IMG/VR virus record: IMGVR_UViG_3300021138_000106
Span: 1 to 33,180 of that record
Length of the DNA: 33,180 bases
Reading direction: 5' to 3' (one strand)
Source of the DNA: a virus
Below the pieces are notes generated by a model, which saw only the letters and a program-made list of their open reading frames with translations, was not told the DNA's origin and ran no database searches. Of this stretch, positions 9,112 to 33,180 are shown piece after piece (the stretch's first letter is position 1; each line of letters starts with the position of its first letter). The position numbers were made by a program, and so were the translations under genes.

Positions 9112-9118
9112 TCTCCTG

Positions 9119-9147: not shown

Positions 9148-9175
9148 ATATTATAAATTGAAACGGAGAACGAAA

Positions 9176-9730
9176 ATGCCAAATTGGGCGTATAATTCAG
9201 TAACAATATCCCACACCGATCCAGAGATGATGGAGAAATTCCGTCAGGGCGTTGAGGAATGTAATCTCCTCGAGACATTTATCCCTATCCCCGCTGCATT
9301 AGTGAACACTACAGCCCCATCGACGGAAACGAACGAGGATTTACTCCGCCTCTACGGATCCGATAACTGGTATGACTGGAATTGTAAGAACTGGGGTACG
9401 AAGTGGGATGTATCGAATGGGTCATTTGACCTTGACGAGGATAAGTTATCAGGTAGTGGATACTTCGAGACAGCATGGAGTCCTCCAATTCAGGCATATG
9501 AAAATTTGAAAAAGCTTGGATTTGTTATTGACGCGACGTATACCGAGGAGAGTATGGCATTTGCTGGCCGATACCAGAGTATTAGCGGAGATGACTATTA
9601 TGAGATTGACTTCGACGAGGAGAACTGGCGTGAAGACATTGACGATCCAGAGGTATTGGAGTTGTTAGAGTCGGAATATGAGTCATGGTTAGAGTTTCGG
9701 GAGAATCAAAATGATGAATCGGGTGAGTAA
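9176..9730 (+). CDS. Api92-like / DUF1281-type phage protein
   Basis: 184 aa from MPNWAYNSVTISHTDPEMME; CGGAG lies seven bases upstream, and upstream in-frame codons fall before the promoter. The MPNWxxN.(V/L)(T/S)(I/V) opening, the central NWGTKWD and the TAWSPPI..(Y/F)..L segment are the signature of the Api92-like family with a ferredoxin-like fold, common in phages and integrative elements. Molecular role unknown. Very acidic C-terminus. It starts an operon continuing through four or more overlapping genes to 10830. Confidence 0.85.
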   Translation: MPNWAYNSVTISHTDPEMMEKFRQGVEECNLLETFIPIPAALVNTTAPSTETNEDLLRLYGSDNWYDWNCKNWGTKWDVSNGSFDLDEDKLSGSGYFETAWSPPIQAYENLKKLGFVIDATYTEESMAFAGRYQSISGDDYYEIDFDEENWREDIDDPEVLELLESEYESWLEFRENQNDESGE

Positions 9731-9929
9731 TTTCTTTAAGGTATTTGCAACTGTATTCTCCATTGTTATGGTAATTGCAGGATTTATTGTTGCATTGAAG
9801 TATACTATGGATTATGTACATCAGTATGGTGGAGAGGTAGGAGAGTTTTTCCTTTTCGCAGTAGTAGTATCGGGAGTATTTGCAGTATTTTCTTCTATGA
9901 TGTTCTTTGTGGAACCGAATAATGAGTAA
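9711..9929 (+). CDS. Two-helix small membrane protein
   Basis: 72 aa with two hydrophobic helices (about 8-30 and 44-67) separated by a short polar loop (DYVHQYGGEVGE). It overlaps the preceding gene by 20 bases and uses GGGAGAATC before its ATG. Likely an inner-membrane protein. Role unknown; possibly a superinfection or envelope factor, without direct evidence. Confidence 0.65.
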   Translation: MMNRVSNFFKVFATVFSIVMVIAGFIVALKYTMDYVHQYGGEVGEFFLFAVVVSGVFAVFSSMMFFVEPNNE

Positions 9930-10095
9930 GATATTTTCTGCAATTGTTATATTTTGTAGTAGTATGGTAATCAATTATCTCTTTGCGGATAATATTGCTG
10001 CAATGGTATCATGTTATGGTACGGTAATTATGTTAATGGTTGCTGATCTGTACATTGTATTGAGTCTGCCGAAGAAGGATCCATGGGACGAATGA
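9922..10095 (+). CDS. Small membrane protein, two helices
   Basis: 57 aa: MSKIFSAIVIFCSSMVINYL, a short loop, then a second hydrophobic helix (CYGTVIMLMVADLYIVLSL) and a charged tail. It overlaps the previous membrane gene by eight bases, indicating coupled production of two membrane partners. The next gene starts at its stop (ATGA). No family recognised. Confidence 0.65.
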   Translation: MSKIFSAIVIFCSSMVINYLFADNIAAMVSCYGTVIMLMVADLYIVLSLPKKDPWDE

Positions 10096-10280
10096 AGGTC
10101 TGGAATGTAATAGAGACGGAGCAGGAACTACGTTCTATCCCCCTCGATGAGTTTATACATCGGGGGGAAGCATCGCACCCGATAACATTTCGCCCATATG
10201 CATTCTTACAGCATAGAGAGAATAAAGAGCAGTATATATTATTGCCAATGCAGGTAGAGGTTATAGAAAATGAAGAGTAA
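10092..10280 (+). CDS. Hypothetical 62-aa protein
   Basis: MKVWNVIETEQELRSIPLDE, then FIHRGEASHPITFRPYAFLQ and an acidic end. The ATGA overlap with the upstream stop favours this start; an ATG three codons earlier is the alternative. The soluble alpha/beta product has no recognised motif. It overlaps the next gene by 11 bases. Confidence 0.55.
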   Translation: MKVWNVIETEQELRSIPLDEFIHRGEASHPITFRPYAFLQHRENKEQYILLPMQVEVIENEE

Positions 10281-10527
10281 ATTAATAGAGAAAATCGATT
10301 CACTGACGGAAACACAGATAGAAATCCTAGTTAAGATCATAGAGAATAATGATTACTCTATAGTAGAGAACTACTACTATCAGAGAGAGAAAGAGAAGAA
10401 GTTCTGGGAAGAACATAGCAAGCCATGGAATAATACTACAGAGTATGCTAAGTATGATACAACTAATGCATATACAAAGGAAGAAACAAATGGAAGAAAC
10501 CATCTCCAATCCCGAGACCAACTCTAA
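10270..10527 (+). CDS. Hypothetical helical protein
   Basis: 85 aa. The first 45 residues are a helix pair (MKSKLIEKIDSLTETQIEIL, NNDYSIVENYYYQREKEKKF). The C-terminal half is polar and low in hydrophobics, likely disordered. The last 38 bases overlap the 39-aa gene in another frame. Function unknown. Confidence 0.6.
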   Translation: MKSKLIEKIDSLTETQIEILVKIIENNDYSIVENYYYQREKEKKFWEEHSKPWNNTTEYAKYDTTNAYTKEETNGRNHLQSRDQL

Positions 10528-10609
10528 TACCAACCCTGAGACCACTACTATCAGCCCTCCGACCACTACTCCGACCAACTCCCATGACCAAGCTAGAGAC
10601 CAAATATAA
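10490..10609 (+). CDS. 39-aa Thr/Pro/Asn-rich low-complexity peptide
   Basis: MEETISNPETNSNTNPETTT then ISPPTTTPTNSHDQARDQI. AAGGAAGAAAC lies just before ATG and the stop overlaps the next ATG (TAATG), so it is embedded in a coupled operon, the main reason to accept it. The composition is nearly all Thr, Pro, Asn and Glu and should be disordered. An imperfect (A)CCAAC/GACCACTAC repetition underlies it at the DNA level. Function unknown. Confidence 0.5.
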   Translation: MEETISNPETNSNTNPETTTISPPTTTPTNSHDQARDQI

Positions 10610-10830
10610 TGGCGAGAGTAACAAAAAAGTCAATGATCTCTGGAGTAGTAAGGACTATGGAAATACCTCAGTATACACAGGAAGAATTCGATAATAGGTA
10701 TATTCTATGGAGAGAAGGTAAAATACTACTACAAGATGCATTCGAAGATACCTCTGCCAATGCAAGAGAGTTTATTAAGACTGGTATGACAGTAGAAGAA
10801 TGGGATCAATACATTACTACTGGAGCATAA
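10609..10830 (+). CDS. Hypothetical 73-aa phage protein
   Basis: MARVTKKSMISGVVRTMEIP, YTQEEFDNRYILWREGKILL, then QDAFEDTSANAREFIKTGMT and VEEWDQYI. The QEEFDxRxxxWxxG..(I/L)QDAF...(AREFI.TG.T.EEW) pattern is shared by a small helical family of phage proteins of unknown role. It starts at the stop of the 39-aa gene (TAATG), ends the operon, and a terminator follows 70 bases later. Confidence 0.7.
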   Translation: MARVTKKSMISGVVRTMEIPQYTQEEFDNRYILWREGKILLQDAFEDTSANAREFIKTGMTVEEWDQYITTGA

Positions 10831-10899
10831 CACAATAGTGTTTTCCCCTAGTAACGGAGTGTTTCGTCGTGGTATTCACTAAAATGTGGGGGATTTATA

Positions 10900-10924
10900 G
10901 GGGGATTTAAATCCCTCTTTTTTT
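10900..10924 (+). terminator. Rho-independent terminator
   Basis: Perfect self-complementary GGGATTTAAATCCC (10902-10915) followed by TCTTTTTTT. It closes the 9.2-10.8 kb operon. Confidence 0.75.
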
Positions 10925-11130
10925 AATGTGAGCGTTGTTTGATCGTCATAAATCGACGAAAACGAGGTAGATGCGGTGTCGATGCTCGTCGATCGGTGTC
11001 GATGCTTGTGCTCTACATCGTGTTACTTTGCGTCATCGCACTATTACTACTGTGCTATACTATTCTATACTGTGCTACACATTAAACTATACATCGATGC
11101 TTCGCGGATAGTTTCAGACAACCAAATATA

Positions 11131-11159
11131 AGTATACCCCCAACGAATCAAAAAGTCAA
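11131..11159 (-). promoter_or_regulatory. Orphan leftward sigma70-like promoter
   Basis: Minus strand TTGACT (11159-11154), 17-bp spacer, TATACT (11136-11131). Transcription would run into the repeat-bearing gene-less DNA to about 10.9 kb. No open frame of note follows. Confidence 0.65.
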
Positions 11160-11258
11160 CCCCTCATTTTGGGTTTCCGCAGCGGATTCCGTTACCCATC
11201 AAAAGTTCGGGTGCACTTAGAATCTCTTCTACCCGCTCTAATCGGGGAATCACTTATT

Positions 11259-11286
11259 AATATACCGTATATCCCCCAAAAGTCAA
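11259..11286 (-). promoter_or_regulatory. Orphan leftward sigma70-like promoter
   Basis: Minus strand TTGACT (11286-11281), 16-bp spacer, TATATT (11264-11259). The only downstream frame is about 30 codons from a GTG, without a ribosome site. Confidence 0.6.
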
Positions 11287-11330
11287 CAAGAATCTTTGCG
11301 AAATTAAATCTTTTTTCGATGAGATATCGC

Positions 11331-11358
11331 TTGACTTTTCCCGAAAATGCGGTATATT
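11331..11358 (+). promoter_or_regulatory. Sigma70-like promoter with conserved leader
   Basis: TTGACT (11331-11336), 16-bp spacer, TATATT (11353-11358), then AATTATAAGTTGAAATGGAG. Confidence 0.7.
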
Positions 11359-11385
11359 TAATTATAAGTTGAAATGGAGAGTTTG

Positions 11386-11652
11386 ATGGAAACCGATTTA
11401 TCCCGCGCTGAAGCCCTCGTTCTGCTCGCGAAAGCCCAATTTCGCCCGTTCCGTAATGAAGACTGGTACGCATTCGGGAACTGCGAAACTAAAAAGCCAT
11501 TGATTGCCGAGGAAGTTTCCTTCGGGGAAAGCGACTCCGACATTTATATCGGCGAGGATTTGTATACGATTGTCATTGACGGCGACACAATTCTTTTCGT
11601 TCGCGAAAGCGACCATTTTGGCGGTCAGCAATTTAAGTTGAAAGAAATTTAG
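11386..11652 (+). CDS. Hypothetical protein, paralogue of the 4556 gene
   Basis: 88 aa from METDLSRAEALVLLAKAQFR; GGAG lies seven bases upstream. It shares EAL.L.A...F(R/K)PF...DWYAF.(N/G)CET and IVIDG(D/N)TI.F with the product at 4556-4771 and carries an extra insertion of about 15 residues (VSFGESDSDIYIGED) in the middle. Its codon use is much richer in GC than the paralogue's, so the two copies have separate histories. Function unknown. Confidence 0.7.
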   Translation: METDLSRAEALVLLAKAQFRPFRNEDWYAFGNCETKKPLIAEEVSFGESDSDIYIGEDLYTIVIDGDTILFVRESDHFGGQQFKLKEI

Positions 11653-11655
11653 TTG

Positions 11656-11684
11656 TTGACTTTTCCCTCGTTTTGCGGTAGAAT
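11656..11684 (+). promoter_or_regulatory. Sigma70-like promoter
   Basis: TTGACT (11656-11661), 17-bp spacer, TAGAAT (11679-11684), leader ATCTTATAAATTGAAACGGAG. Confidence 0.7.
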
Positions 11685-11711
11685 ATCTTATAAATTGAAA
11701 CGGAGACTCCT

Positions 11712-11858
11712 ATGCTTTTATCCTCTGCCACTAAAGCTGCCCAATCCGCCTCGCTCGCCGAGATGATTGCTGCGTTCCAAGCTGCTGGCGGATCGGTCGT
11801 GCAGGTCGAAACTGGCGTTGCACACGGTCTGAAGAAAAAGAAGTTCATCCGCAAATAA
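11712..11858 (+). CDS. 48-aa small phage protein
   Basis: MLLSSATKAAQSASLAEMIA then AFQAAGGSVVQVETGVAHGL and KKKKFIRK. CGGAG lies nine bases before ATG and it has its own promoter. The helix L.EM(I/V)AAF.A.GG followed by a strand (V..VETGVA) and a very basic end is seen in small phage proteins of unknown function. The lysine tail suggests nucleic acid contact. Confidence 0.65.
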   Translation: MLLSSATKAAQSASLAEMIAAFQAAGGSVVQVETGVAHGLKKKKFIRK

Positions 11859-11861
11859 GTG

Positions 11862-11889
11862 TTGACTTCTCCCGAATTTGCGGTATACT
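11862..11889 (+). promoter_or_regulatory. Sigma70-like promoter
   Basis: TTGACT (11862-11867), 16-bp spacer, TATACT (11884-11889), leader AATTATAAATTGGAAAGGA. Confidence 0.75.
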
Positions 11890-11915
11890 TAATTATAAAT
11901 TGGAAAGGAACTGAA

Positions 11916-12404
11916 ATGTCTAAAGCACCTACGAAGACTTCTCTCGCGATTGAAACCATGAACGCGAACGCGAAGAAGCCAATGGCTAATGTTATCCCGT
12001 TGATCGCCGCAGCTTCTGGCGTGGATCTGCGTCTCGCCAAGAACTATTATCTCTGGGCTGTCCGCAAGGGACTCGCTGCTGGCACGGTCGAAAAGACCGT
12101 GAAGCAAAAGACCGTCAAAATCGCAACGGTCGTCAAGAAAGCTGGCAAGGCATTCGCTGCCAAGAAGGCAAAGGAAGCCAAGCCAGTAGCGACAAAGACA
12201 GACGCTGTGAAAGCCATCAAGGAAGCGAATTTGAAGCGCATGCAGGAAGTTGCTGCGAAGAATAAGCGTTCGTTCGATGGTGCTCGTGGCGCAAAGTTAG
12301 ACCCCAAAGTTCAGCGGGAAGAGTTGGCAGCGTATGAAGCCGAGTTGGACTCGTTCGCCGTGCCGAAATTCCTGAGCAAGGCACAGCTGAACGCACTCGT
12401 GTAA
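11916..12404 (+). CDS. Lys/Ala-rich basic protein, probably nucleic-acid binding
   Basis: 162 aa from MSKAPTKTSLAIETMNANAK; AAAGGAAC precedes this ATG. Residues about 20-50 form a small helical domain (VIPLIAAASGVDLRLAKNYY, LWAVRKGLAAG) resembling helix-turn-helix units of phage proteins. The middle (about 55-105) is dominated by Lys, Ala and Val, like a histone H1 tail. The C-terminus is helical and more acidic. It could coat or compact DNA, inferred only from composition. High-GC codon use, unlike the late genes. Confidence 0.7.
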   Translation: MSKAPTKTSLAIETMNANAKKPMANVIPLIAAASGVDLRLAKNYYLWAVRKGLAAGTVEKTVKQKTVKIATVVKKAGKAFAAKKAKEAKPVATKTDAVKAIKEANLKRMQEVAAKNKRSFDGARGAKLDPKVQREELAAYEAELDSFAVPKFLSKAQLNALV

Positions 12405-12411
12405 TCAGTTG

Positions 12412-12439
12412 TTGACTTCTTCTGAAAAGAGCGTATACT
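12412..12439 (+). promoter_or_regulatory. Sigma70-like promoter
   Basis: TTGACT (12412-12417), 16-bp spacer with TTCTGAAAA, a degenerate form of the TTCTGAGAA palindrome, TATACT (12434-12439). Confidence 0.7.
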
Positions 12440-12464
12440 GGTATTATCGATTAAGGAGAATCAC

Positions 12465-13354: not shown

Positions 13355-13750
13355 ATGGATATTGTAGTGTTTGATATTGATGGAACGATTGCTGATAACA
13401 CACATCGTCAGCACCATCTAATGGGAGATAGGAAGAACTGGGATTCGTACAATGCAGGTAGCTCCAGGAGACTTTTAATGATTAATGATAAGAATATAAT
13501 CGACCAAGAAACTCTAGATGCATATAAGAATCATTTGCGAAAGTTACAGCGTGGTCCAGGTGGTATCATGGAGATGAAGCAGACGATCTCTAACAAGGAA
13601 ACTGAGATTGATCGGTTGCAGAAATATAAGGTCTTTGTTGCCATGATAGCAAATGAGCCATGGGAACTCAGTTATGAGAAGATTGAGAATCAACGCAATT
13701 GGTGGTCAAAACTGGCTCGTAAATTGCTGGATGAAGTGGAAGTTGACTGA
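13355..13750 (+). CDS. Truncated HAD-phosphatase N-terminus fused to a duplicated phage domain
   Basis: 131 aa. Residues 1-35 (MDIVVFDIDGTIADNTHRQH, then LMGDRKNWDSYN) carry the HAD motif I DxDGT and the sequence that usually follows it in phage nucleotidase or polynucleotide-kinase phosphatase domains. Motifs II-IV are absent, so it cannot be a complete HAD enzyme. Residues about 60-131 (RGPGGIMEMKQTISNKE onward) are closely similar to the protein at 17476-17760. The gene looks like a deletion fusion. AAGGA lies nine bases before ATG. Coupled to the next gene (TGATG). Confidence 0.75.
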   Translation: MDIVVFDIDGTIADNTHRQHHLMGDRKNWDSYNAGSSRRLLMINDKNIIDQETLDAYKNHLRKLQRGPGGIMEMKQTISNKETEIDRLQKYKVFVAMIANEPWELSYEKIENQRNWWSKLARKLLDEVEVD

Positions 13751-17328: not shown

Positions 17329-17476
17329 TAGGTGGTTTGTAAGCTGGATTTGGCCAAGGTATGGCGAAATATTCGCATGGAATCGTACTAGATTTAATGG
17401 TGGTGGTTATATGTTTGGCTCCGCACCTTATACGTATTGGAGAATTGGTCCTATCTTTGTAAAAAGGTATATGTGA
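17315..17476 (+). CDS. 53-aa aromatic-rich basic protein
   Basis: MRLSDRWFVSWIWPRYGEIF then AWNRTRFNGGGYMFGSAPYT and YWRIGPIFVKRYM. Unusually rich in Trp, Tyr, Phe and Arg. AAAGGTAAATA precedes ATG. It overlaps both neighbours (14 bases and TGATG), which supports it as a real coupled gene below the usual size cut-off. It could be membrane-associated or RNA-binding; no evidence decides. Confidence 0.55.
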   Translation: MRLSDRWFVSWIWPRYGEIFAWNRTRFNGGGYMFGSAPYTYWRIGPIFVKRYM

Positions 17477-17760
17477 TGACTGATGCTAGAATCAAACTTC
17501 TTACTGAAGGTCCAGGCGGTATTATGGAAATGAAGCAGACGATTGCCAATAAGGAAGCTGAGATTGCTCGCCTACAAAAGTATCGTAACTTCGTAATGTC
17601 ATTTTACTATGAACCAATGGAGCTAAGTCACCATAAACTACCGAGTCAATATAATCACTGGCAGCAAACTGCTGGTAAGCTGATATATCAAAATGAACCT
17701 GATACTGGATTTACTGATGAAGAGCTAGGGCATAGGAATACTAAAAATGAACAAGCGTAA
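17476..17760 (+). CDS. Hypothetical protein, intact copy of the domain found in the HAD fusion
   Basis: 94 aa. Residues 9-50 (EGPGGIMEMKQTIANKEAE, RLQKYRNFV) are nearly identical in pattern to the C-terminal part of the protein at 13355-13750; both continue with (E)P(M/W)EL(S)...(QYNHW/QRNWW). A coiled-coil-like helix (MEMKQ..NKE.EI.RLQKY) is the core. Coupled to the previous gene (TGATG) and overlaps the next by 14 bases. Function unknown. Confidence 0.7.
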   Translation: MTDARIKLLTEGPGGIMEMKQTIANKEAEIARLQKYRNFVMSFYYEPMELSHHKLPSQYNHWQQTAGKLIYQNEPDTGFTDEELGHRNTKNEQA

Positions 17761-18440: not shown

Positions 18441-18464
18441 CTTTTCTCTCTAATAAGGTATAAT
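18437..18464 (+). promoter_or_regulatory. Sigma70-like promoter for the tmRNA-tRNA cluster
   Basis: TTGACT (18437-18442), 16-bp spacer, TATAAT (18459-18464), just before the acceptor piece of the tmRNA. Confidence 0.75.
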
Positions 18465-18470
18465 AAATAT

Positions 18471-18768
18471 ATTGCTGATGTTGATGACATCTAGTGGAAT
18501 AGACACTGAGGACGCGGGGGCGGTACCCGCCGCCTCCACCATAGATACATCGGTCTCCATAGTCGGAACAAATATGGTGTAATAGGTTTCTCCGAACACC
18601 CGATGTATCTTTGATGGGGGCGAAATAGGATCGACTGGTGTAATAAAGACAAGATCGAGACAATAGCAAAAAACGTAAATGCAAACGATAACAATGCATA
18701 TGGTCTTCGCCTAGCGGCTTGATCGGAGTTCGGGAGGCACTTGGCAACAGAAGCCTCCCACCTAATTT
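18471..18768 (+). ncRNA. ssrA: Circularly permuted two-piece tmRNA
   Basis: The acceptor piece comes first: T-stem GCGGG/CCCGC (18514-18530), acceptor strand CGCCTCC, A, then CCA (18539-18541). An intervening segment follows whose ends pair as AGATACATCGG (18543-18553) with CCGATGTATCT (18600-18610). The coding piece then starts with GGGGGCG (18616-18622), which pairs with CGCCTCC and leaves the G-U wobble at the third pair that alanyl-tRNA synthetase requires. GGATCGACTGG follows, then the tag frame GCA AAC GAT ... GCG GCT TGA (18681-18722), giving A-ANDNNAYGLRLAA, and a GGGAGGC/GCCTCCC foldback (18732-18759). This is the layout of alphaproteobacterial tmRNA, which rescues stalled ribosomes and tags their products for ClpXP. 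The T-loop GGCGGTA departs from TTCRA. Exact ends are estimated. Confidence 0.9.
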
Positions 18769-18772
18769 TATT

Positions 18773-18849
18773 GGCCTCGTAGCTCAGCTGGACAGAGCAA
18801 TGGATTTCTACTCCACAGGTCGGGCGTTCGAATCGCTCCGAGGTCGCCA
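18773..18849 (+). tRNA. tRNA-Arg (anticodon UCU)
   Basis: Complete cloverleaf of 77 bases with encoded CCA. Acceptor GGCCTCG pairs with CGAGGTC (one G-U), discriminator G, D-arm GCTC/GAGC, anticodon loop TTTCTAC with TCT at 34-36, and T-arm GGGCG-TTCGAAT-CGCTC. The top anticodon-stem pair is A-C, leaving four good pairs. It reads AGA and AGG, codons common in the late structural genes. It follows the tmRNA by a few bases and is probably processed from the same transcript. Confidence 0.9.
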
Positions 18850-18855
18850 ATTTTT

Positions 18856-18947
18856 GGGGGTGGGTGTTGGTACACAGGGAGTCCTTATAAGGCTTTCAGC
18901 GGCAGATTACCGTTCTCGACAGGGTTCAAATCCTTGCACCCCTACCA
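18856..18947 (+). tRNA. Unusual class II tRNA-like gene with UAU anticodon
   Basis: 92 bases. Acceptor GGGGGTG pairs with CACCCCT, followed by A and CCA (a second CCA follows at 18948-18950). T-arm CAGGG-TTCAAAT-CCTTG. Anticodon stem GAGTC/GGCTT (extendable by two pairs) with loop CTTATAA: T33, anticodon TAT, A37. The variable region is long with its own stem (AGCGG/CCGTT, loop CAGATTA), as in Leu, Ser and Tyr tRNAs, yet the anticodon would read AUA (Ile). The D-arm is reduced (GTGT/ACAC, 4-base loop TGGT). The amino acid it carries cannot be decided from sequence; A73 would suit LeuRS. Confidence 0.65.
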
Positions 18948-21211: not shown

Positions 21212-21237
21212 AGGGGGGCTTCGGCTCCCCTTTTTTT
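21212..21237 (+). terminator. Strong Rho-independent terminator after gene 32
   Basis: 8-bp stem AGGGGGGC/GCTCCCCT with a TTCG tetraloop and seven T's (21231-21237). The stop of the opposing leftward gene begins at 21238, so it also separates the convergent operons. Confidence 0.9.
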
Positions 21238-23503
21238 ATGAGAATTTTACGTTCTTAAGATCGTGTGGATATGCACCTTTTAATTCAGCATACCATGATG
21301 GAGCAAATTCATTACCAAAGAATTTTTCAGTATTATGATCCATGCCAACTGCAGATCTTGATGGAGGTTGTCTATAATCATCTGGTGGTCTTGAACCTTC
21401 ATTACCTCCAGTAGATTTCATAGAAGCTTCTCTAGCAAGTTCAGACATTGCTGTTTGCTCTACACCTCTTCTTGATAAATTTTCACCACGATCATGGCGG
21501 GTATCAACACGATATCCGCTTTCTTCATTATTACCACCACCAAGTAGCGATGAAAGTATATTAACACCAGCACCTATAAGACCGCCAGCTCCACCTCTAC
21601 CACCAAGCATACTTTCCATCATACCCATAGGACCAGATTGAGCAAATCCAGCAGTACCTAATACACCGTGACCTATTTCGCCCTGACTAATTTTTCCTAC
21701 ATTACCAAGTTCTGGGAATGGTCCACCGCCACCGCCACCTTGACCTTGGTTAGCGAATCCAAAACTACCTTCATTTTGTCTTGGACCATGACCCTCTGAG
21801 GCAGCGCCACCGCCACCTTGACCTTGGTTAGCGAATCCAAAACTACCTTCATTTTGTCTTGGACCATGACCCTCTGAGGCAGCGCCACCGCCACCTCCTG
21901 CATACTGCCAATGCCATGGTTCTCTTGGAATATTACTGAATCCGAATTTTCCTGCATTTTCTTGTAGCCATTTATTTTGTTTGCTGCCTTCTTGATTTGC
22001 ACCGCCACCTAAATCAACAGCCAGACCCCAACCATGATTTGATGTTCCAGGAGTTGCAGCCAATCCGCCTTGAGAATATAAACCTTTTTGTTTTGCAAGT
22101 CTGAGTTGCTCATCATAAGTTCTATATGAATCTGTAACACTCCAAGATATACCTTCAGATTTGGCAGCATCTAACATTTTCTTATATGCATCAGCGGCTT
22201 CTGGTTTTAATCTATGATTACCTTCACCGATAGATACTAATTCCGCATCAGGTAAATTACCATTTCCACCTTGATCGCCACCTTGTGATAATTCACCACC
22301 ACCTCTGCCCATCATAGGATTTGGTGCACTTACTTGTTCTCCACCACTTTCTCTATTGTTACCGCCAGAAATAGGAGTTGTATCAGAACCATTAACTGAT
22401 GGTGTATTGCCACCTTGTTGTGAAGGCGATGGAGGAACAGCTGTATTAGGTTGAGGTGTTACTGCACTAGCAACTTGAGTTTGCGTGGCGCCACCAGACA
22501 TCTTTGAGTCTATCGAAGCTAATTTAGAACCATAATCGGGATCTGTAGCATAACCACTTTTAGATTGAGCAGCTATTGCTTCATCTATACTTTTAGCAGC
22601 CAGAACATCTTTATATCTTGGATTCTTCATTAAAAAATCAATATAATCTCCAGCTGATTCTGAAGAATCTTTATATGATTTGAAATTTTGTTTTGTGTCA
22701 ACCATTTTACCGTTGACAAATTCTTGTGTTCCTGCACTAACACTATCTGTATCATTTTTTCCAGCTTTGATACCAAAAGCATTATTACCAACCATATGTT
22801 GGCCATAACCAGTTTCAAGCGAAGTTTGTGTAGCCCCTAATTTGGCAATAACTTCTGGATTTGGAACACCTTTTTCTTTTGCTGCTTTCAATAAAGAACT
22901 ATACATTTTATCATAATATTCTTTTTGTTCTGCAGATGCAGGTTTATTAGATTTTGCAGTTTCACCAGCTGGCGCACCACCTTTAGGTATTGTTGCTCCT
23001 GGCATGTTTTCGAAGCCAGTTTGCATTTTATTTTCTTTAGCTACCATATCGCCAGCAACTGTGCTAATACCTAAAGCACCTAGACCAACTTTTGCAGTAT
23101 TAGAAATATTTAATTTACCACCAGTAGCTAAACCACCAATTTTTTGGAATAAACTGCCACTACTATTTCCTACATTAGAATTTTGATTACCTAATGATTT
23201 TATAGCAACAGCAAGATGTTGTAATTGTGTTATTACTTGATATTGCGCTTGTAAAGAAGCATTCAATATACTATTTGTTTGACTTAATTGTGAAGTAACA
23301 CCTTGTTGGCTATCAGAAAGAGCTTGCTGTATTTGTGGGCCAATACTTGATATTTGTTGTTTTTGAGAAGCAAATACATTGTGTACGTCTTTAAGAATTC
23401 GAGACATATTTTCATTGTGTTCATCTGCAGCTTCTCTGAAATTATTTGTTGCGGCATTCATACCGCTTGCTGCTTTTGCTATTTGACTTAGTTCATTTGC
23501 CAT
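21236..23503 (-). CDS. Two-domain peptidoglycan hydrolase (glucosaminidase plus VanY/M15 peptidase), virion-associated or lytic
   Basis: 755 aa. Residues 1-110 are Gln-rich helices, probably coiled coil. About 195-340 form a glucosaminidase-type domain (GATQTSLETGYGQ near 227 with its catalytic Glu, then NNAFGIKAG, and SYKDSSESAGDYIDFLMKN). A Ser/Gly/Pro linker is followed by an M15B D-alanyl-D-alanine peptidase at about 430-535: SYRTYDEQ, SNHGWGLAVDL with zinc ligands His and Asp, and EPWHWQY. Two perfect 26-residue Gly-rich repeats and a Gly-rich tail follow. It cuts glycan and peptide bonds. It lies after the gp26 and gp51-like genes, where T4 relatives have tail-length proteins, and after a holin-like gene, so it may be a tail lysin or the endolysin. 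Confidence 0.85.
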   Translation of the reverse strand: MANELSQIAKAASGMNAATNNFREAADEHNENMSRILKDVHNVFASQKQQISSIGPQIQQALSDSQQGVTSQLSQTNSILNASLQAQYQVITQLQHLAVAIKSLGNQNSNVGNSSGSLFQKIGGLATGGKLNISNTAKVGLGALGISTVAGDMVAKENKMQTGFENMPGATIPKGGAPAGETAKSNKPASAEQKEYYDKMYSSLLKAAKEKGVPNPEVIAKLGATQTSLETGYGQHMVGNNAFGIKAGKNDTDSVSAGTQEFVNGKMVDTKQNFKSYKDSSESAGDYIDFLMKNPRYKDVLAAKSIDEAIAAQSKSGYATDPDYGSKLASIDSKMSGGATQTQVASAVTPQPNTAVPPSPSQQGGNTPSVNGSDTTPISGGNNRESGGEQVSAPNPMMGRGGGELSQGGDQGGNGNLPDAELVSIGEGNHRLKPEAADAYKKMLDAAKSEGISWSVTDSYRTYDEQLRLAKQKGLYSQGGLAATPGTSNHGWGLAVDLGGGANQEGSKQNKWLQENAGKFGFSNIPREPWHWQYAGGGGGAASEGHGPRQNEGSFGFANQGQGGGGAASEGHGPRQNEGSFGFANQGQGGGGGGPFPELGNVGKISQGEIGHGVLGTAGFAQSGPMGMMESMLGGRGGAGGLIGAGVNILSSLLGGGNNEESGYRVDTRHDRGENLSRRGVEQTAMSELAREASMKSTGGNEGSRPPDDYRQPPSRSAVGMDHNTEKFFGNEFAPSWYAELKGAYPHDLKNVKFS
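21738..21893. repeat. Perfect 78-bp tandem duplication within the hydrolase gene
   Basis: Two consecutive copies of a 78-bp unit (26 codons) without a mismatch, encoding GGGGAASEGHGPRQNEGSFG then FANQGQ. The codon-for-codon identity points to a recent in-frame duplication by slippage. It lengthens the Gly-rich linker after the peptidase domain. Confidence 0.9.
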
Positions 23504-24033
23504 TAACTGCTACCGTTCATTTTTGCTAGTTTCTCTTGACCTCTAGTCCAGGCAGCTACACCGAGAATTGCTGCAAACGAAAGATGTATTAATCCACCAT
23601 TTGATAATGTTAAAGGAACCCATGGCGAATAAGTAAATTGAACACCAAGTCCTTTATATATTACTGGTAAAAATATTGTAATTCCAGGAAATCCAATAAA
23701 ATCCATAAAACAAATAGCCATATAAAGCCAGCCCATCGCTGGTCTCCAATATGCTTTTATCCAATGCTCTTCTGATTCTTTTAATTGTTCATCAACAACT
23801 TCTTTATCAATAGAAGTTTGTGCAAGCCCAACAGAAGCTTGAGCTTGTGCAGTGGCCATCTGCATTGTTTGGTTGTTTTGATTATTGTAGTTATTGTTCC
23901 CACCATTATTATTGTTATTATCAATAACTACGACAGAAGGTGGAGGAGCTACAGGTGTGGGTGTTGGAACAGCCACATTGCTGATATCAGGCGATGATGG
24001 AGGAGGAGCGTTAGGGTCTGCTCTAATTACCAT
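23503..24033 (-). CDS. Three-helix holin-like membrane protein with disordered N-terminus
   Basis: 176 aa. Residues 1-45 are Pro-rich and followed by an Asn tract (DNNNNNGGNNNYNNQNN), disordered. About 92-170 is a membrane domain: WIKAYWRPAMGWLYMAICFM, ITIFLPVIYKGLG and HLSFAAILGVAAWTRGQEK. The YWRPxMGW start with two to three helices and a WTRGxEK end is the form of the 3TM holin family used by gene-transfer agents and alphaproteobacterial phages. It overlaps the hydrolase gene by one base, a normal holin-endolysin pairing. The extended N-terminus is unusual. It may alternatively be a tail protein. Confidence 0.65.
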   Translation of the reverse strand: MVIRADPNAPPPSSPDISNVAVPTPTPVAPPPSVVVIDNNNNNGGNNNYNNQNNQTMQMATAQAQASVGLAQTSIDKEVVDEQLKESEEHWIKAYWRPAMGWLYMAICFMDFIGFPGITIFLPVIYKGLGVQFTYSPWVPLTLSNGGLIHLSFAAILGVAAWTRGQEKLAKMNGSS

Positions 24034-24211
24034 TTTGCTGTCTTTGTTTCGCTTCTTCTACTTCTCTTAGATAATTCATTAACATTTCGATATAAATGTC
24101 TCTTTCAAAAGGCATTAAATTTTCAATTTCACTAATGGAATATTTATGATGCTGAGCCATTGAAAAAATTGTTGTAAAATAATTCTGTAAAGAATTATGA
24201 CTCAGCGCCAA
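24023..24211 (-). CDS. gp51-like baseplate hub assembly protein (tail-assembly chaperone type)
   Basis: 62 aa: MALSHNSLQNYFTTIFSMAQ, HHKYSISEIENLMPFERDIY, then IEMLMNYLREVEEAKQRQ. The (Y/F)(S/T)(I/L).E(I/L)E.(M)P(F/Y)ER.IY(I/V).(L)(L) motif is typical of short helical proteins coded between gp26-type hub genes and the tape-measure gene in phage tails; in T4 this slot is gp51. It overlaps gp26 by ten bases and the holin-like gene by 11. The call rests on the motif and position. Confidence 0.6.
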   Translation of the reverse strand: MALSHNSLQNYFTTIFSMAQHHKYSISEIENLMPFERDIYIEMLMNYLREVEEAKQRQQNGN

Positions 24212-24909
24212 GTAAAAAAATCATTTAACGAATTTAATACGATTTTTCTTTCATTACCTTTTTTATTTGTGTAATTGATAGTGTGTTCTAGTTTAGGAAC
24301 AGATAGTAGAAAATTCTGAATAGATTCAAAAGTTTTCATATCTAGATTTTCTAAGAAATCTTCTAATTCTTGCTTCTTATAGTTTTTAGATTCATAAACA
24401 CTATCACCATAATACATTTTATCAATACATCTGATGATCAATTCAAACATATAGTTTTTATCTAATTTAAGAAATTCTTCATCATCATATAAAGATGCTG
24501 GAGGATACTTCATAACAATACCAGATTTATCTGTTATTTTAATATTATTTTCTAAATTTTTAGGGTATATAATTTCTATATCATTTAAATCTACAGTAAA
24601 TGTATAAGTTTCTTCGTCTTCAAAATCTTTATATGTTAGCTTTGCTATGTTATCTACAGAAACAGCTCTGAGCTTTAGAAAGATATATTCTAAATCAAAA
24701 ACGGCTAATTTGTTAATGTCTAACTTATCATCTGTGCAGCAATTATTAACAATCTGTTTGATTGCTGATAAAATCTCAGCTTGACTTTCGCTTTCTCTAG
24801 CCATGAGAAGTAGTTTTTCTTCTTTGACTAAAAATGGTCTAAATTTATAAACCTTTTTCAGAGAAGGTATTTTGATATTATATAAAGGGTATTCAATTTT
24901 AGGTAACAT
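24202..24909 (-). CDS. 26: gp26-type baseplate hub subunit
   Basis: 235 aa (T4 gp26: 208). MLPKIEYPLYNIKIPSLKKV, YKFRPFLVKEEKLLLMARES, then IKQIVNNC, a central LAVFDLEYIFLKLRAVSV and a C-terminal LEDFLENLDMKTFESIQNFL. The P....(F)RPFLVKEEK.LL(M)A.E opening and FDLE(Y)(I/L)FL.LRA(K/V)S are the signature of the T4_baseplate gp26 family. It helps assemble the central hub. Downstream of the gp54-like gene and cotranscribed with the lysis genes; strongly AT-rich. Confidence 0.88.
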   Translation of the reverse strand: MLPKIEYPLYNIKIPSLKKVYKFRPFLVKEEKLLLMARESESQAEILSAIKQIVNNCCTDDKLDINKLAVFDLEYIFLKLRAVSVDNIAKLTYKDFEDEETYTFTVDLNDIEIIYPKNLENNIKITDKSGIVMKYPPASLYDDEEFLKLDKNYMFELIIRCIDKMYYGDSVYESKNYKKQELEDFLENLDMKTFESIQNFLLSVPKLEHTINYTNKKGNERKIVLNSLNDFFTWR

Positions 24910-28416: not shown

Positions 28417-29651
28417 TGCCAATTGGTGATATTAATTTTCAAACCTTTACTATAGGCAGTTTAGATGTCAACGATTCAACAGCTATTGGGCTTGTTGGTC
28501 TTAACATATATGAAGACATATTAAATCCTTTAGGTCCAGTTGGTGAAGCTAGATTAAATGACTTCAATGACGCTGTTGGTAAATCTAATATTAATGGTAA
28601 AGAAGATGTTACCATTAGTTTTTCATGCGATCAGGGCGGTGGATCTGCTAGTTTTAAATTTAAACTAATGAAAAATACAAATGGCAATGATGGTTCTATG
28701 GAATCAAAAGGTTCTGGCCATAGTAAAAGATCTGACTTTAGATTTGTAAGCCCAGAACTATTAGCTTCCCAAGGTAATTTTATATCAAAGAGTTATAATA
28801 CACAAACCAGTGAAATGGTTAAAAATATGTTAACTGATTTTTTAAAAACAGATAAATCAGTTGATATTCAAGAGCAAACAAAAGGTAATCGTAGATTAGT
28901 ATTTCATAATGAACATTTTGCAGATGCTTATAAAAAATTAAACCACGAGCATGTTTCTTCTTCTCATGAATCTTCATGTTATGTTCTTTTTGTTCAGGGT
29001 GGTAGCTCTCCAAAATATGTGTTCTCTACATATGAACAATTATTTGAACAAGGACCAGTTACAAAATTAACACAATCTACAACTTTAGCAACTGGTAATA
29101 TATCAGATAAAACTAAACAAAATTCAATGATTTGGTTTAAGCCATCAGATACTTTTTTTACACCAGCTCGTTCGTTAACAAAACCAAATGAAAAAACATA
29201 TAATTTAACAACTGGTAAAGCCCATTCGGTACCACCGCAACAACCGCCATCTTTTAAATTTGCAGATGGTCAGGGTGTATTTACTACACCACCTTCAAGC
29301 GCAAATGGTGTACCTTCACATACTGTTAATGATCCTTCTAATAATAAAGATGATCCTTCTGTTTCTACTGCAAGAAAAAATAGAGCTGCTTTTCTAGCTT
29401 TCCTTTCTCAAAATTCAGCTGAATTAGAAATACCTGGAAATCCAGAAATTACTCTTGGTAGTATGATTGAATTAGATGTTCCTAAAAAAGCTAATCAAGA
29501 TATAGAACAAGGCGAAACGCAAATTAATGGTAAAGCTTTAGTTGTTTCTATTAGACACAAAATTAAACCTCTAGGCCAAACACCTAGATATACAATGGTA
29601 CTAAGAGTAGTTAAAGGTTCTTATAAACAAGGTGGTGGTGGTAATGGGTGA
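28416..29651 (+). CDS. 27: gp27-like baseplate hub protein
   Basis: 411 aa (T4 gp27: 391). LNIYEDILNPLGPVGEARLN, DFNDAVGKSNINGKEDVTIS, FKFKLMKNTNG, a KNMLTDFLKTDKSVDI helix, HEHVSSSHESSCYVLFVQGG and an (E)IPGNPEITLGSMIELDVPKK domain near the C-terminus. Motif order follows the hub with its tube-like barrels: (Q/Y)(E)DI(L)NP.GP...(V)(V/L)(D/N)..D..G...(I)NG.E..(T)(I)(S/R)F. It forms the trimeric base on which the gp5-type spike stands. Directly upstream of the OB-fold gene, overlapping by eight bases. Confidence 0.85.
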   Translation: MPIGDINFQTFTIGSLDVNDSTAIGLVGLNIYEDILNPLGPVGEARLNDFNDAVGKSNINGKEDVTISFSCDQGGGSASFKFKLMKNTNGNDGSMESKGSGHSKRSDFRFVSPELLASQGNFISKSYNTQTSEMVKNMLTDFLKTDKSVDIQEQTKGNRRLVFHNEHFADAYKKLNHEHVSSSHESSCYVLFVQGGSSPKYVFSTYEQLFEQGPVTKLTQSTTLATGNISDKTKQNSMIWFKPSDTFFTPARSLTKPNEKTYNLTTGKAHSVPPQQPPSFKFADGQGVFTTPPSSANGVPSHTVNDPSNNKDDPSVSTARKNRAAFLAFLSQNSAELEIPGNPEITLGSMIELDVPKKANQDIEQGETQINGKALVVSIRHKIKPLGQTPRYTMVLRVVKGSYKQGGGGNG

Positions 29652-29943
29652 TTTATACGCTGCAGAAGTGAGAAATATCATGGACCCTTTGAAATCGGGT
29701 AGAGTTCAAGTAAGAGTATATGGCCATCATGACGATGAAAATTCTGTTAAAGATGCTGATTTGCCATGGGCATTACCTTTACAGCCAGTAACTTCTGCCG
29801 CCACAGGTAAAGTTGGAACTGTACCTGTTGGATTATTAGTAGGTTCGAGAGTTGTGATTACATATTTACACAGTGATACTGCAGAGCAATATCCAATTAT
29901 ACTTGGATCTTTTGCTCGTGGTGCATTGCCAGCTGGAGGATAA
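29644..29943 (+). CDS. gp5-type OB-fold domain as a separate small protein
   Basis: 99 aa from MGDLYAAEVRNIMDPLKSGR; the ATG at 29644 is preferred over GTGs upstream in the same frame. RVQVRVYGHHDDENS, DLPWALPLQPVTSA, then GLLVGSRVVITYLHSDTAE and PIILGSFARG follow the OB-fold of T4 gp5 (residues 1-128): (R)V(Q/K)VR..G.......LP(W)A.P..........G......G..V...(F/Y)..G......(I)(I/V).G. No lysozyme domain follows, unlike T4 gp5. It plugs onto the hub and carries the needle. Confidence 0.85.
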   Translation: MGDLYAAEVRNIMDPLKSGRVQVRVYGHHDDENSVKDADLPWALPLQPVTSAATGKVGTVPVGLLVGSRVVITYLHSDTAEQYPIILGSFARGALPAGG

Positions 29944-29944
29944 A

Positions 29945-31444
29945 ATGTCTATAGATACAGGACCAGATAAAGGTGCAGGTAAAGCATTATTAGATATTAT
30001 TAGTTTTGGTATTGATACTTTTGGATCTAAAGAAACGCATAAATTAGCACCTAATAATCCTAAAGTAGGTGGTAAACCTGTTGATACTAATCCAAAATAT
30101 AATAATGCACCTGCAGTAAAAAATGATGCAGGTCAACCTGCAGTTTCGACATCGCGTTCGCAAAATGCACCAAACGCAGATAATCCAACTGTTGCTTCTG
30201 CTCCTGCAAATATGAAATTGCCAGACGCTTTAGCAAAAGTTGATCCAAAATCTGTAGCTGCTTCATTAAAAAATATGATGAGTTTACTTAACCTCGTTAA
30301 GAGTATTATCAATAGTGCAAGTAGTCATTCTCAAACTAAATCTGTAACAAAAGGTTTTTCTGGCGCTCTTTCTATTCTTGCGAACAAATATGGTTACAGT
30401 AAAGTTATAACAGCTTTTGATATAGCGTTAGAAAATAATGGTATTAATCAAATTGAACCTGATTACCAAACTATTGTTAAAGAAGGTATATCTAACTTAA
30501 TTCAGCAAGTTATGGTTTTCGGCGAAGATAAAATACCAGCTCCAGTTATACCTCCAATTGTGTATGGTACAGTATTACCGCCAGCAAATTTGATAGTTTA
30601 TTTTGCCAAAGTTCCTAACCTATATGTACAGCAATATTATTCATCAACCAGCGATCCATATCCTGGGTATATTCAGTGGCTAGGACCAAATGGTGATTAT
30701 CTATATTCTTTAAGACTATCGTATCAATATCCATATGCTTCTGCAGATGAAGAAATATTATCAACTTCCCAGTTAGAAATAGCGGCTGCTTTTGATCCAT
30801 ATATTTTAAATAATAAACCTATTCCTATTTTTATTACACCTACCATAATAAATACTGTTTTGGATATAGCAAGCGCGAATGTTCAAAAAAACGGTATGGA
30901 AAAAAATATGGGTAATGGCTCATCTGTTAATATAATGAGCTTATTACCAGAATTGATGGGTATTGCTGGTACTACTTTAAATGTTTCGCAAACTTTACAT
31001 TTACCAAACTCTGTTTTAAATCAAAGCACAGTTTCTGATTCGTTACAGAAATTTGCGACTAATATTTCTATGGCTAAATTAATGCAATCTAAATCTGCAG
31101 GAGCTTTTAATATTCCATCAGCGCTGAGTAGCCTTACAAATATTGCATCACTGGCAGGAGCTTTAGGTTCATTGGGAATTTCTATACCAAGTTTAGCTGC
31201 TGTAGCTGGCCTTACAGATATTAGTAGTTTGGGCGCTGTTGCAGATATTACTAAGTTATTAGCTTCTTCTTCGAATGCGCTGAATCAATTGAATTCACTT
31301 GGTATATCTCCTTCTGGATTGGCATATGATGCGTATACAGCTGCTGGAGCTACTTCGGCTTCTATAGCTCTTGGTTTACAACATTCTAATGTTTCTTCAG
31401 ATGCTATTTTAGTAACTGAAAGCATATTAAATAAGGTATTGTGA
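29945..31444 (+). CDS. Structural protein of unknown function in the baseplate operon
   Basis: 499 aa from the ATG at 29945; a longer in-frame start would overlap the OB-fold gene without a ribosome site. The N-terminus is Asn/Pro/Ala-rich and disordered (about 1-95). A middle domain at about 195-300 has a striking Tyr/Pro-rich run (VPNLYVQQYYSSTSDPYPGY, YSLRLSYQYPYASADEEIL). The C-terminus is Ala/Ser/Leu-rich helix (LSSLTNIASLAGALGSLGIS). No recognised family. Its place between OB-fold and needle genes suggests a role on the hub or needle, or as an ejected protein. Confidence 0.7.
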   Translation: MSIDTGPDKGAGKALLDIISFGIDTFGSKETHKLAPNNPKVGGKPVDTNPKYNNAPAVKNDAGQPAVSTSRSQNAPNADNPTVASAPANMKLPDALAKVDPKSVAASLKNMMSLLNLVKSIINSASSHSQTKSVTKGFSGALSILANKYGYSKVITAFDIALENNGINQIEPDYQTIVKEGISNLIQQVMVFGEDKIPAPVIPPIVYGTVLPPANLIVYFAKVPNLYVQQYYSSTSDPYPGYIQWLGPNGDYLYSLRLSYQYPYASADEEILSTSQLEIAAAFDPYILNNKPIPIFITPTIINTVLDIASANVQKNGMEKNMGNGSSVNIMSLLPELMGIAGTTLNVSQTLHLPNSVLNQSTVSDSLQKFATNISMAKLMQSKSAGAFNIPSALSSLTNIASLAGALGSLGISIPSLAAVAGLTDISSLGAVADITKLLASSSNALNQLNSLGISPSGLAYDAYTAAGATSASIALGLQHSNVSSDAILVTESILNKVL

Positions 31445-31445
31445 A

Positions 31446-32294
31446 ATGGGTTTGTTAGATAATTTTAATAAATTTTTAGAAAAAGCTCCATATGATGATG
31501 GAAGATCTTCGCCAGATTATCCATGGATTCATGGTATTGGCGGCTTGCTTGGTGATAGAAAAATAGTTCATGCTAACCCAGATAAACCTGATGAAGCATA
31601 TCATGAAAAAATACATCATGATGGCACTTTTGAACATAAAGAAGCTAATGGTTTATTGAGCAGAATTTCTAAAGAAGTAAGAGAATATGTTTCTGGTGGT
31701 CACAGCCATAATTCTGATAGCCATAAAGCAGATCATACACAGGGTAGTAAAAATACTGACGCTAAAGGTGATATGGGAACCGCTTCTGGTGGAGATCATT
31801 TTAAAGGGCATGGCGGTAAAGAAATAGGTGGTTCTTCAGAAGGTGGCCACAACCATACAGATGGTGATGATTTTCGTACTTCAAAAGGAAATGTAGTTAG
31901 TTCACACGAAGGGGATATGCATACAAATCATGATGGAGATCATGTTTCAACTGTAAATGGTACAAATTATCATACAACAGTTGGTGACCATGCACTTAAT
32001 GTGCAAGGTGGTCAATTAGATGTGCAGGTGAATAGTGGTAATACTCGTATATATTCGGCTAAAAGTATTTTAATACAAAGTGGAACAGAAATAACTTTAA
32101 GAGTAGGTAATTCTACATTATACATTAATTCTTCTGCAATGAGTATTGATATTCCTGGAGTTATTGGTATCGGAGCAAATTCTAATATTGGTGTATTTTC
32201 TAATACTAATATTGGTCTTTTTGCGAATACTTCAGGCTCTGGATATGTTAAAATTGTTGGCCCAACTGTTACTATTAACCCACCTGGAGGTTGA
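31446..32294 (+). CDS. Needle/spike beta-helix protein (gp5 C-terminal-like), histidine-rich
   Basis: 282 aa. Residues about 85-160 are unusually rich in His, Gly and Asp (GGHSHNSDSHKADHTQ, SEGGHNHTDGDDF). About 165-282 form short repeating strands (GDMHTNHDGDHVSTVNGTNY, HTTVGDHALNVQGGQLDVQV, ILIQSGTEITLRVGNSTLYI, NIGVFSNTNIGLFANTSGSG) that match the beta-helix of the T4 gp5 C-terminus and of phage spikes. It completes the membrane-piercing needle as a separate gene downstream of the OB-fold. His-rich turns may hold metal. One base after the 499-aa gene; followed by a His-rich protein and PAAR tip. Confidence 0.8.
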   Translation: MGLLDNFNKFLEKAPYDDGRSSPDYPWIHGIGGLLGDRKIVHANPDKPDEAYHEKIHHDGTFEHKEANGLLSRISKEVREYVSGGHSHNSDSHKADHTQGSKNTDAKGDMGTASGGDHFKGHGGKEIGGSSEGGHNHTDGDDFRTSKGNVVSSHEGDMHTNHDGDHVSTVNGTNYHTTVGDHALNVQGGQLDVQVNSGNTRIYSAKSILIQSGTEITLRVGNSTLYINSSAMSIDIPGVIGIGANSNIGVFSNTNIGLFANTSGSGYVKIVGPTVTINPPGG

Positions 32295-32296
32295 TT

Positions 32297-32503
32297 ATGA
32301 ATCATAAATTTGTAATTTTAAATAATGGAATATTAGAAACTTATACTAACTATGATGATATACCTTTGTCATTTGATCATGTGATTGAATTTAAACCATG
32401 GATTGATGAAGATCATGATCATGTTCATACAGATCATGATCATGAAGAATTAGCTCAATGGAATATTAAATTACAAGAACTTATGAAAAGGGAAACAAAA
32501 TAA
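32297..32503 (+). CDS. Small His/Asp-rich protein between needle and PAAR genes
   Basis: 68 aa from MNHKFVILNNGILETYTNYD; GGAGG lies six bases before this ATG. The middle DEDHDHVHTDHDHEE (about 36-50) has six histidines alternating with Asp and Glu, a strong candidate for a metal (zinc, iron or nickel) site. A C-terminal helix follows (LAQWNIKLQELMKRE). The stop overlaps the PAAR start (TAATG). It could load or shield the metal of the needle tip; this is inference from position and composition. Confidence 0.7.
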   Translation: MNHKFVILNNGILETYTNYDDIPLSFDHVIEFKPWIDEDHDHVHTDHDHEELAQWNIKLQELMKRETK

Positions 32504-32797: not shown

Positions 32798-33180
32798 ATG
32801 GCAGTAACAAGAGCAGACGTAATATTAAACACCAGAGGCAAACAAGAGTTTTTCTCTGATTTCTTAGATAGTTTTGCAATGACTCCAGTTGGTAATCAAC
32901 TTGGTAGAGTAGTAGATGCAGAATCTGTTAATCAATCTATAAAAAATTTAATATTGACAAGCACGGGCGAGAGGTTATTTCAACCATTAATTGGTAGTAA
33001 TATATATAATTCTTTATTTGAATTGAACAGCACGATAGAAGCTTCTACTATTGAATTTTTAATTGAAACAACTATTAAGAATAATGAACCAAGAGCTTCG
33101 GTTAATAGTGTTACTGTAATATCAAATCCAGATAATTATACTTTATCTATCAATATCGTTTATAATCTCATAAATAGTAC
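32798..33180 (+). CDS. 25: gp25 baseplate wedge subunit (partial, runs off the window end)
   Basis: About 127 codons are visible. MAVTRADVILNTRGKQEFFS, DFLDSFAMTPVGNQLGRVVD, SVNQSIKNLILTSTGERLFQ, PLIGSNI and, at the window edge, SVTVISNPDNYTLSINIVYN. The N.(S)(I/V)(K)(N/R)L(I)LT..GER(L/P)F.P..GS.(I/L) core is the gp25-like lysozyme-fold wedge protein common to T4, P2 (gpW) and type VI secretion (TssE). It starts sheath polymerisation at the baseplate. T4 gp25 is 132 aa, so it is nearly complete here. Confidence 0.92.
   Translation, partial: MAVTRADVILNTRGKQEFFSDFLDSFAMTPVGNQLGRVVDAESVNQSIKNLILTSTGERLFQPLIGSNIYNSLFELNSTIEASTIEFLIETTIKNNEPRASVNSVTVISNPDNYTLSINIVYNLINS

Follow-up and report, generated by a model that had tools for sequence, protein, structure and literature searches.

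A probable gp5-type tail spike encoded by separate OB-fold, middle-module and needle genes, with no detectable lysozyme, in an uncultured T4-like phage

In phage T4, the gp5 chain is cut between its lysozyme and its needle to give the (gp27-gp5*-gp5C)3 complex (PMC3004832), and the question addressed here is how a related phage may assemble such a spike, and where it may carry its wall-digesting enzyme, when the corresponding parts are distributed over several genes. The question is raised by a stretch of DNA of 33,180 nucleotides (nt), positions 1-33,180 of the IMG/VR virus record IMGVR_UViG_3300021138_000106 (hereafter, the window), which is a piece of the genome of an uncultured T4-like phage. 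A preliminary description of the window had proposed that gp5 is divided here into a gene for an OB-fold protein of 99 amino acids (aa) (hereafter, OB) and a gene for a needle of 282 aa, with an unknown protein of 499 aa (X) between them and no lysozyme, and that wall digestion falls instead to a hydrolase of 755 aa (HYD). OB, X and the needle are indeed separate, adjacent genes of these lengths (Table 1), each with its own start rather than the single, cleaved chain of T4.

The OB protein has the N-terminal OB domain of T4 gp5, matching Pfam families Gp5_OB (PF06714; E 1.2e-8; 35.7 bits, the cut-off being 25) and PF04717 (E 7.7e-6), as well as phrog_430, named 'baseplate hub subunit and tail lysozyme' (E 9.6e-27), the latter over profile positions 21-106 of 868 only. 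An OB-alignment search of an uncultured-virus collection returned 31 related loci (given below as L numbers), and the window proteins were compared to the open reading frames (ORFs) of these loci by BLASTP (E <= 1e-3). X adjoins or is fused with OB in 21 of the 31 loci, while two loci are cut inside OB (L032, L034) and eight show no X match at this threshold (L033, L035-L041). OB and X are separate ORFs in 17 of the 21 loci but form one ORF of 565-610 aa in the other four (L005, L024, L029 and L030), which represent three distinct sequences (L005 and L024 are near-copies; L006 and L024 are one contig); several of the 21 loci are near-copies as well, so that these counts refer to loci, not to independent events. 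Since the split recurs in other contigs, near-identical to and distant from the window alike, it is not an assembly slip. Further, because X is one polypeptide with OB in 4/21 loci, its sequence relationships identify it as the middle part of a gp5-type spike, at the place where T4 has the lysozyme. That is, a gp5-type spike divided over genes and devoid of a recognizable lysozyme stood up to analysis, but X as an unrelated in-between protein did not. The fusion of these products, which had been named as evidence that would speak against the split, does occur at the gene level for OB and X in relatives, while the needle has an ORF of its own in each of the 15 loci that extend to it (the other 6 of the 21 end earlier).

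No lysozyme was detected in OB, X or the needle of the window, in contrast to the lysozyme-bearing spike of T4. Consistent with the earlier claim, none of the 17 rows of the X-family alignment (A4) matches a Pfam hydrolase at E <= 0.05, and Phage_lysozyme (PF00959) and SLT (PF01464) are found in none of the ten virus records searched, window included; the built-in controls of these searches were positive in 3 and 8 of 14 genomes. A lysozyme could be encoded elsewhere in the genome, since all ten records are fragments (33 kilobases, kb, for the window).

DUF2345 is found in 10 of 13 needle-family rows at E <= 0.01 (best 3e-8), and the window protein matches it with E 0.0082 and 16.4 bits, which is less than the 30.7 bits of the cut-off. 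A profile of the family gives weak matches to a VgrG chain (E 0.0038) and to T4 gp5 chains (0.09), and comparison of the needle with gp5 of Xanthomonas phage X1 and of cyanophage ACG-2014d was also weak (probability 64% and 10%, respectively). A beta-helix is absent from the low-confidence needle model (predicted local distance difference test score, pLDDT, 52). Neither the window nor the L029 version of the needle had a match at E <= 0.01 in phage records. A separate needle gene is less unlike T4 than it appears, because T4 gp5 is itself cut into gp5* and gp5C; in other words, the gene layout gives here what T4 gets by cleavage.

Where, then, might the wall enzyme be? HYD contains a Glucosaminidase domain (E 1.2e-18) and a VanY domain (E 1.1e-18; both Pfam), and comes after gp26 in the window, with gp51 and a holin-like gene in between. 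In this gene neighborhood, hydrolase domains are thus carried by the protein that comes after gp26, as in cyanophage ACG-2014d, and a holin-like gene (phrog_3427) adjoins the hydrolase gene, as in a lysis cassette. A tape measure gene would be expected behind genes of the tail assembly chaperone type; HYD does come after gp26 and gp51, but with the holin-like gene intervening, and a chaperone role of gp26/gp51 has only been proposed (PMC9024508). A relative of HYD lies between gp26 and gp32 in L043, L044, L046, L047 and L048, although BLASTP did not detect gp51 in L046, L047 or L048. The latter two are identical in this stretch and have no holin match between gp26 and the hydrolase. VanY and Glucosaminidase were each found in four of the ten virus records, most of these fragments ending short of the HYD gene. 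In a sister phage (L045), Phage_lysozyme2 (PF18013, E 1.5e-24) takes the place of the glucosaminidase, with the N-terminus, VanY and the C-terminus kept; L045 and L014 are the same contig, and OB and X are split in L014. As a separate observation, a 26-residue stretch occurs as two tandem copies in HYD (residues 538-589) and once in the 729-aa version of L043.

Taking these results together, we consider it likely that the OB, X and needle genes jointly make the central spike that T4 obtains from one cleaved gp5, and that the wall enzyme resides in HYD instead. Under this hypothesis, the three products would belong to one trimeric complex, in which OB seats on the hub trimer and X, a module without enzymatic activity, stands in for the lysozyme domain. 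The needle and its PAAR tip would pierce the outer membrane, and HYD, probably a tape-measure or hub-lumen protein and presumably part of the virion, would reach the periplasm once the tube passes the membrane. Cutting of the wall would then take place outside the spike, probably by the exchangeable lytic domains of HYD (VanY combined with glucosaminidase in the window and with tail lysozyme in the sister phage).

Several observations weigh against this interpretation. The holin-like gene overlaps the start of HYD, several HYD relatives are named 'endolysin' in PHROGs, and the VanY protein of ACG-2014d is annotated as an endolysin, so that a role in lysis fits too. Glucosaminidase relatives in L050 and L053 have no window tail proteins alongside (E <= 1e-3), and the protein of the corresponding slot in Ochrobactrum phage vB_OspM_OC (hereafter, OC) has no Pfam hydrolase and aligns to HYD with a best E of 0.013 in Gly-rich sequence, which is unconvincing (BLAST). 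In addition, the DUF2345 match of the window needle lies under the curated cut-off, the X model is, like that of the needle, of low confidence (pLDDT 55 overall), and the well-conserved D100, D237, S326 and T82 of X would be compatible with an unrecognized enzyme.

The strongest alternative is that HYD does not belong to the virion but serves in lysis, as an endolysin working with the holin next to it. The spike would then get through the wall by mechanical force or by means of an enzyme whose gene lies beyond the window. Beyond the directly upstream, overlapping holin-like ORF and the endolysin names mentioned above, this alternative draws support from L046, where a holin also adjoins HYD, and from the contractile phage phiCD508 of a Gram-positive host, for which the authors of PMC11948020 report finding no evidence of hydrolase domains in the virion. 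On the other hand, the glucosaminidase protein of L047/L048 follows gp26 without an intervening holin match, the long extra N- and C-terminal regions of HYD are conserved in the sister phage, the cyanophage VanY protein is located within a tail gene block, and the swapped-in domain is the one Pfam calls 'Phage tail lysozyme' (PF18013), which is also found inside the gp5 of OC. On balance, an endolysin role of this kind seems to us unlikely, even if it deserves serious consideration. The earlier assignment of wall digestion to HYD is plausible in light of the L045 domain swap and the cyanophage VanY protein in a matching slot, while the adjacent holin-like gene leaves room for an endolysin.

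It is also important to consider whether X itself could be an enzyme. X has an N-terminus of low complexity and a C-terminal part rich in Ala, Gly and Leu, in which hydropathy peaks at 400-435; between them come a part predicted to be helical and a short beta stretch that carries the motif DPYPGYIQWLGPNGD. X looks helical in its AlphaFold model, a poor model that is best at residues 130-330. X has no PHROG match and only a chance-level Pfam match (E 0.23), and the X part of the family gives no meaningful match in Pfam, PHROGs or PDB sequences beyond the OB part of the fused rows. Foldseek comparison of the model to a viral structure library (BFVD) returned a 'Protein Gp5, N-terminal OB-fold domain containing protein' (E 2.1e-9, 21% identity) and an uncharacterised protein (E 7.3e-24, 31% identity). 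A second structural comparison gave helical arrangements with Z up to 8.5, which, the model being poor, proves neither a known nor a new fold. Accordingly, the hypothesis that X is a strongly diverged wall hydrolase, i.e., that the spike keeps its enzyme, can point to the position of X at the lysozyme place in fused relatives, to a fold left unsettled by the poor model, and to a few polar residues kept in 13-15 of 16 homologues (the partial L015 row was left out of the conservation counts). Yet no D, E, H or C is identical across these 16 homologues, the best acidic columns being D100 (14/16) and D237 (13/16), with H352 in 12/16 and W245 and R257 invariant; nor did Foldseek find any PDB fold at E <= 0.001, albeit with a poor model, and Pfam hydrolases are absent from all 17 rows as mentioned above. 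We therefore regard a hydrolase as improbable and take X to be the middle part of the spike, probably one that lacks enzyme activity.

Two of the X homologues, in L022 (6224-8800) and L023 (609-3185), are 858 aa long, with about 300 residues between two aligned parts that do not align to X; the L022 protein has four DUF4214 stretches (Pfam), the best at 437-515, inside this unaligned gap.

The boundary between OB and X was assessed at 13 split junctions. In the window, X starts one base past the OB stop codon, in a different frame and with GGAGG ahead; its frame is offset relative to OB by +1 in 4/13 junctions (window, L003, L015, L031) and by +2 in 9/13, and a ribosome-site-like (GGAGG-like) stretch lies ahead of X at most of the 13. 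That a programmed frameshift joins OB and X, leaving no real split, is very improbable given this varying offset and these ribosome-site-like stretches: a frameshift would find room in the window and L003, where an open X frame extends 87 nt ahead of the X start and shares 86 nt with OB (67 nt in L022, 58 nt in L016), but the overlap is at most 16 nt or absent in 9/13 junctions. Ratios of nonsynonymous to synonymous substitution rates (dN/dS) relative to L003 (80% identity in X) are 0.14 for OB, 0.22 for X and 0.24 for the needle, values that would be expected of working genes. On a tree of hub plus OB sequences (21 rows, 17 with X and four without), the split/fused label changes three times by parsimony, at least two of these changes being forced by well-supported branches. 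The tree gives no clear direction for these changes, since its outgroups have long branches and an OB that is joined to modules of other kinds.

We then asked how far X is represented among known phages. Searching 50,697 phage records by tblastn with X gave no match at E <= 0.01, and the L016 version of X gave none at E <= 1; records very near the window may be absent from this set. With the fused L029 protein as query, 2097 phage records match, none over 80% of the query, and among the best 20 the matches cover the OB end or, in P-HM1, query positions 20-211. Profile comparison of X to the gp5 of OC, BUCT-ZZ01 and Sf-CH1b recovered OB plus at most a short stretch beyond it. For the hub, the phage records contain a single relative, that of Pseudoalteromonas phage XG4 (21.8%), whose OB lies in a 307-aa ORF. 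The 549-aa OB protein of L038 was considered as an X relative but is not relied on, its alignment past OB lying in an Ala/Gly-rich part. A partial literature search, covering titles and the beginnings of abstracts, found nothing on an OB/needle gene split or on X. What is new here is X as a family, together with a gene boundary between OB and X that shifts among relatives. A broader interpretation, which we offer tentatively and hold to be possible but somewhat short of probable, is that X represents a family, so far undescribed, of spike modules without enzymatic function, which took over from the lysozyme throughout an uncultured branch of T4-like phages. Such a module could accommodate additional domains (DUF4214 in L022/L023), and its gene would repeatedly separate from the OB adapter gene and fuse with it again. 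The spike would then be a device of exchangeable separate chains, with lytic domains swapped in a different tail protein.

Comparison with known spikes indicates that the parts are known and their arrangement is unusual. T4 gp5, with gp27 and gp5.4, shows the same order of hub, OB fold, middle part, needle and PAAR-type tip, and its needle, gp5C, likewise ends up as a chain of its own in the mature virion (PMC3004832); T4 differs in that the window has three genes for OB, middle part and needle, for which no cleavage would be needed, and a middle part, X, with no recognizable lysozyme. Sampled T4-like gp5 proteins carry differing modules after OB, i.e., M15 plus Phage_lysozyme2 (OC), GH19 (BUCT-ZZ01 and L035), CHAP (Atu_ph04, phiM9 and RHph_I1_9), a sub-threshold M15 (pf16), a sub-threshold beta-helix only (X1) and Calx-beta (Sf-CH1b), which makes a modular gp5 ordinary; OB and X as separate genes are a further variant of it. 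OC has a similar tail gene order, and its gp5 carries the same Phage_lysozyme2 as the L045 version of HYD, but there the M15 peptidase and Phage_lysozyme2 are both inside an 808-aa gp5. The Rhizobium, Sinorhizobium and Agrobacterium T4-like phages RHph_I1_9, phiM9 and Atu_ph04 also have a short gp5 with OB and no Pfam needle family, in their case with OB fused to the CHAP domain in one protein of 288-291 aa.

A spike without lysozyme is ordinary as well, being found in two cyanophage gp5 and in P1. Pfam recognizes only the OB domain in the gp5 of cyanophages ACG-2014d and P-SSM4, although these are single long genes (831 and 769 aa, respectively) and tblastn with X does not match them in the phage records. 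ACG-2014d also has a VanY protein (E 7.4e-10) directly after gp26, which aligns to HYD with 34% identity over 124 columns (E 4e-15). For P1, the authors of PMC9024508 infer that gp5 lacks lysozyme and that the tape measure, Sit, bears an SLT domain, so that the wall enzyme is again thought to be outside the spike; P1 gp5 is one protein that aligns to the OB and beta-helix of T4 gp5, and an X-like middle is not described in the available portion of that paper. A lytic domain outside gp5 thus has parallels in the L045 swap and the ACG-2014d VanY after gp26, with P1 a published inference of the same kind. Separately, Sphingomonas phage PAU (L060, 3714-4457) encodes a short, 247-aa baseplate protein with a sub-threshold OB (PF04717, E 3.4e-4); the next gene is separate and matches no Pfam family, so that this is possibly another split spike.

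If correct, the interpretation favored here, in which OB, X and the needle make the spike and HYD carries the wall enzyme, means that the puncturing device of T4 has been dismantled into separate genes, with fused and split relatives, so that what the OB adapter, the middle part and the needle each contribute could be studied individually. It also bears on where contractile-tailed phages keep their wall enzymes, since lytic domains are swapped in another protein between sister phages that share split OB/X genes. As to annotation, the gp5 genes of ACG-2014d and P-SSM4 carry the label 'tail lysozyme' in their records, although Pfam detects no lysozyme in them.

The genes discussed belong to two divergent blocks that meet at about 26.7 kb of the window: a minus-strand block with gp4, gp2, tail tube, gp26, gp51, the holin-like gene and HYD, and a plus-strand block with tube cap, gp53, hub, OB, X, needle, a 70-aa ORF, PAAR and gp25 (Table 1). 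The hub protein has no Pfam match; its gene sits upstream of OB in related loci too, and from this position we infer a T4 gp27-like protein. The 70-aa His/Asp-rich protein may perhaps be tied to metal loading of the PAAR tip, which is a guess.

Table 1. Tail and lysis-related features of the window, with coordinates in nt
Feature	Coordinates	Strand	Evidence
HYD, 755-aa hydrolase: N-terminal region, Glucosaminidase 218-331, VanY 430-536, Gly-rich C-terminus	21236..23503	-	Pfam
Holin-like membrane protein of 176 aa, immediately preceding HYD	23503..24033	-	phrog_3427 holin, E 9.5e-7
gp51-like baseplate hub assembly catalyst, 62 aa	24023..24211	-	phrog_634, E 3.4e-25
gp26-like baseplate hub protein	24202..24909	-	phrog_150, E 4.4e-59
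Baseplate hub protein, 411 aa	28416..29651	+	phrog_350 'tail protein', E 6.8e-30
OB, stand-alone gp5-type OB-fold, 99 aa	29644..29943	+	ATG start; PF06714, PF04717, phrog_430
X, 499 aa, spike middle module, joined to OB in some relatives	29945..31444	+	Fused relatives, alignment A4
Needle, 282 aa, the C-terminal spike protein and probably a trimeric beta-helix	31446..32294	+	DUF2345 family matches
His/Asp-rich protein, 70 aa (HDHVHTDHDHEE), between needle and PAAR	32291..32503	+	phrog_24555, E 5.3e-10
PAAR-repeat spike-tip protein, 97 aa	32503..32796	+	PF05488, E 9.8e-13; phrog_281, E 3.1e-25
gp25-like baseplate wedge/sheath initiator, cut by window end	32798..33180	+	PF04965, E 6.9e-14

Finally, a few features of the window lie apart from the spike. 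A permuted (two-piece) transfer-messenger RNA (tmRNA) of alphaproteobacterial type is found at 18441-18947 (RF01849, 137 bits), with the tag ANDNNAYGLRLAA (ARAGORN), followed by tRNA-Arg(tct) and tRNA-Ile(tat); two-piece tmRNAs are known from aquatic phages, according to PMC9004378. Near-identical sister phages (L044, 7652-8845, and also L043) have a rearranged tmRNA locus; its flanks are the same as in the window, and between them are an ORF for a putative GIY-YIG endonuclease (read from the sequence), a permuted-tmRNA-like stretch (RF04321, 82 bits) and a 70-aa ORF, with ARAGORN reporting two tRNAs only. Several copies of a putative promoter-like leader, TTGACTT ... TATAAT-like and then AATCTTA.GGTTGAAA.GGAG-like, were found by repeat search at 3845-12447. 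The ORFs at 13355-13750 and 17437-17760 share GPGGIMEMKQTI.NKE.EI.RLQKY and are, judged by eye, apparently paralogues.

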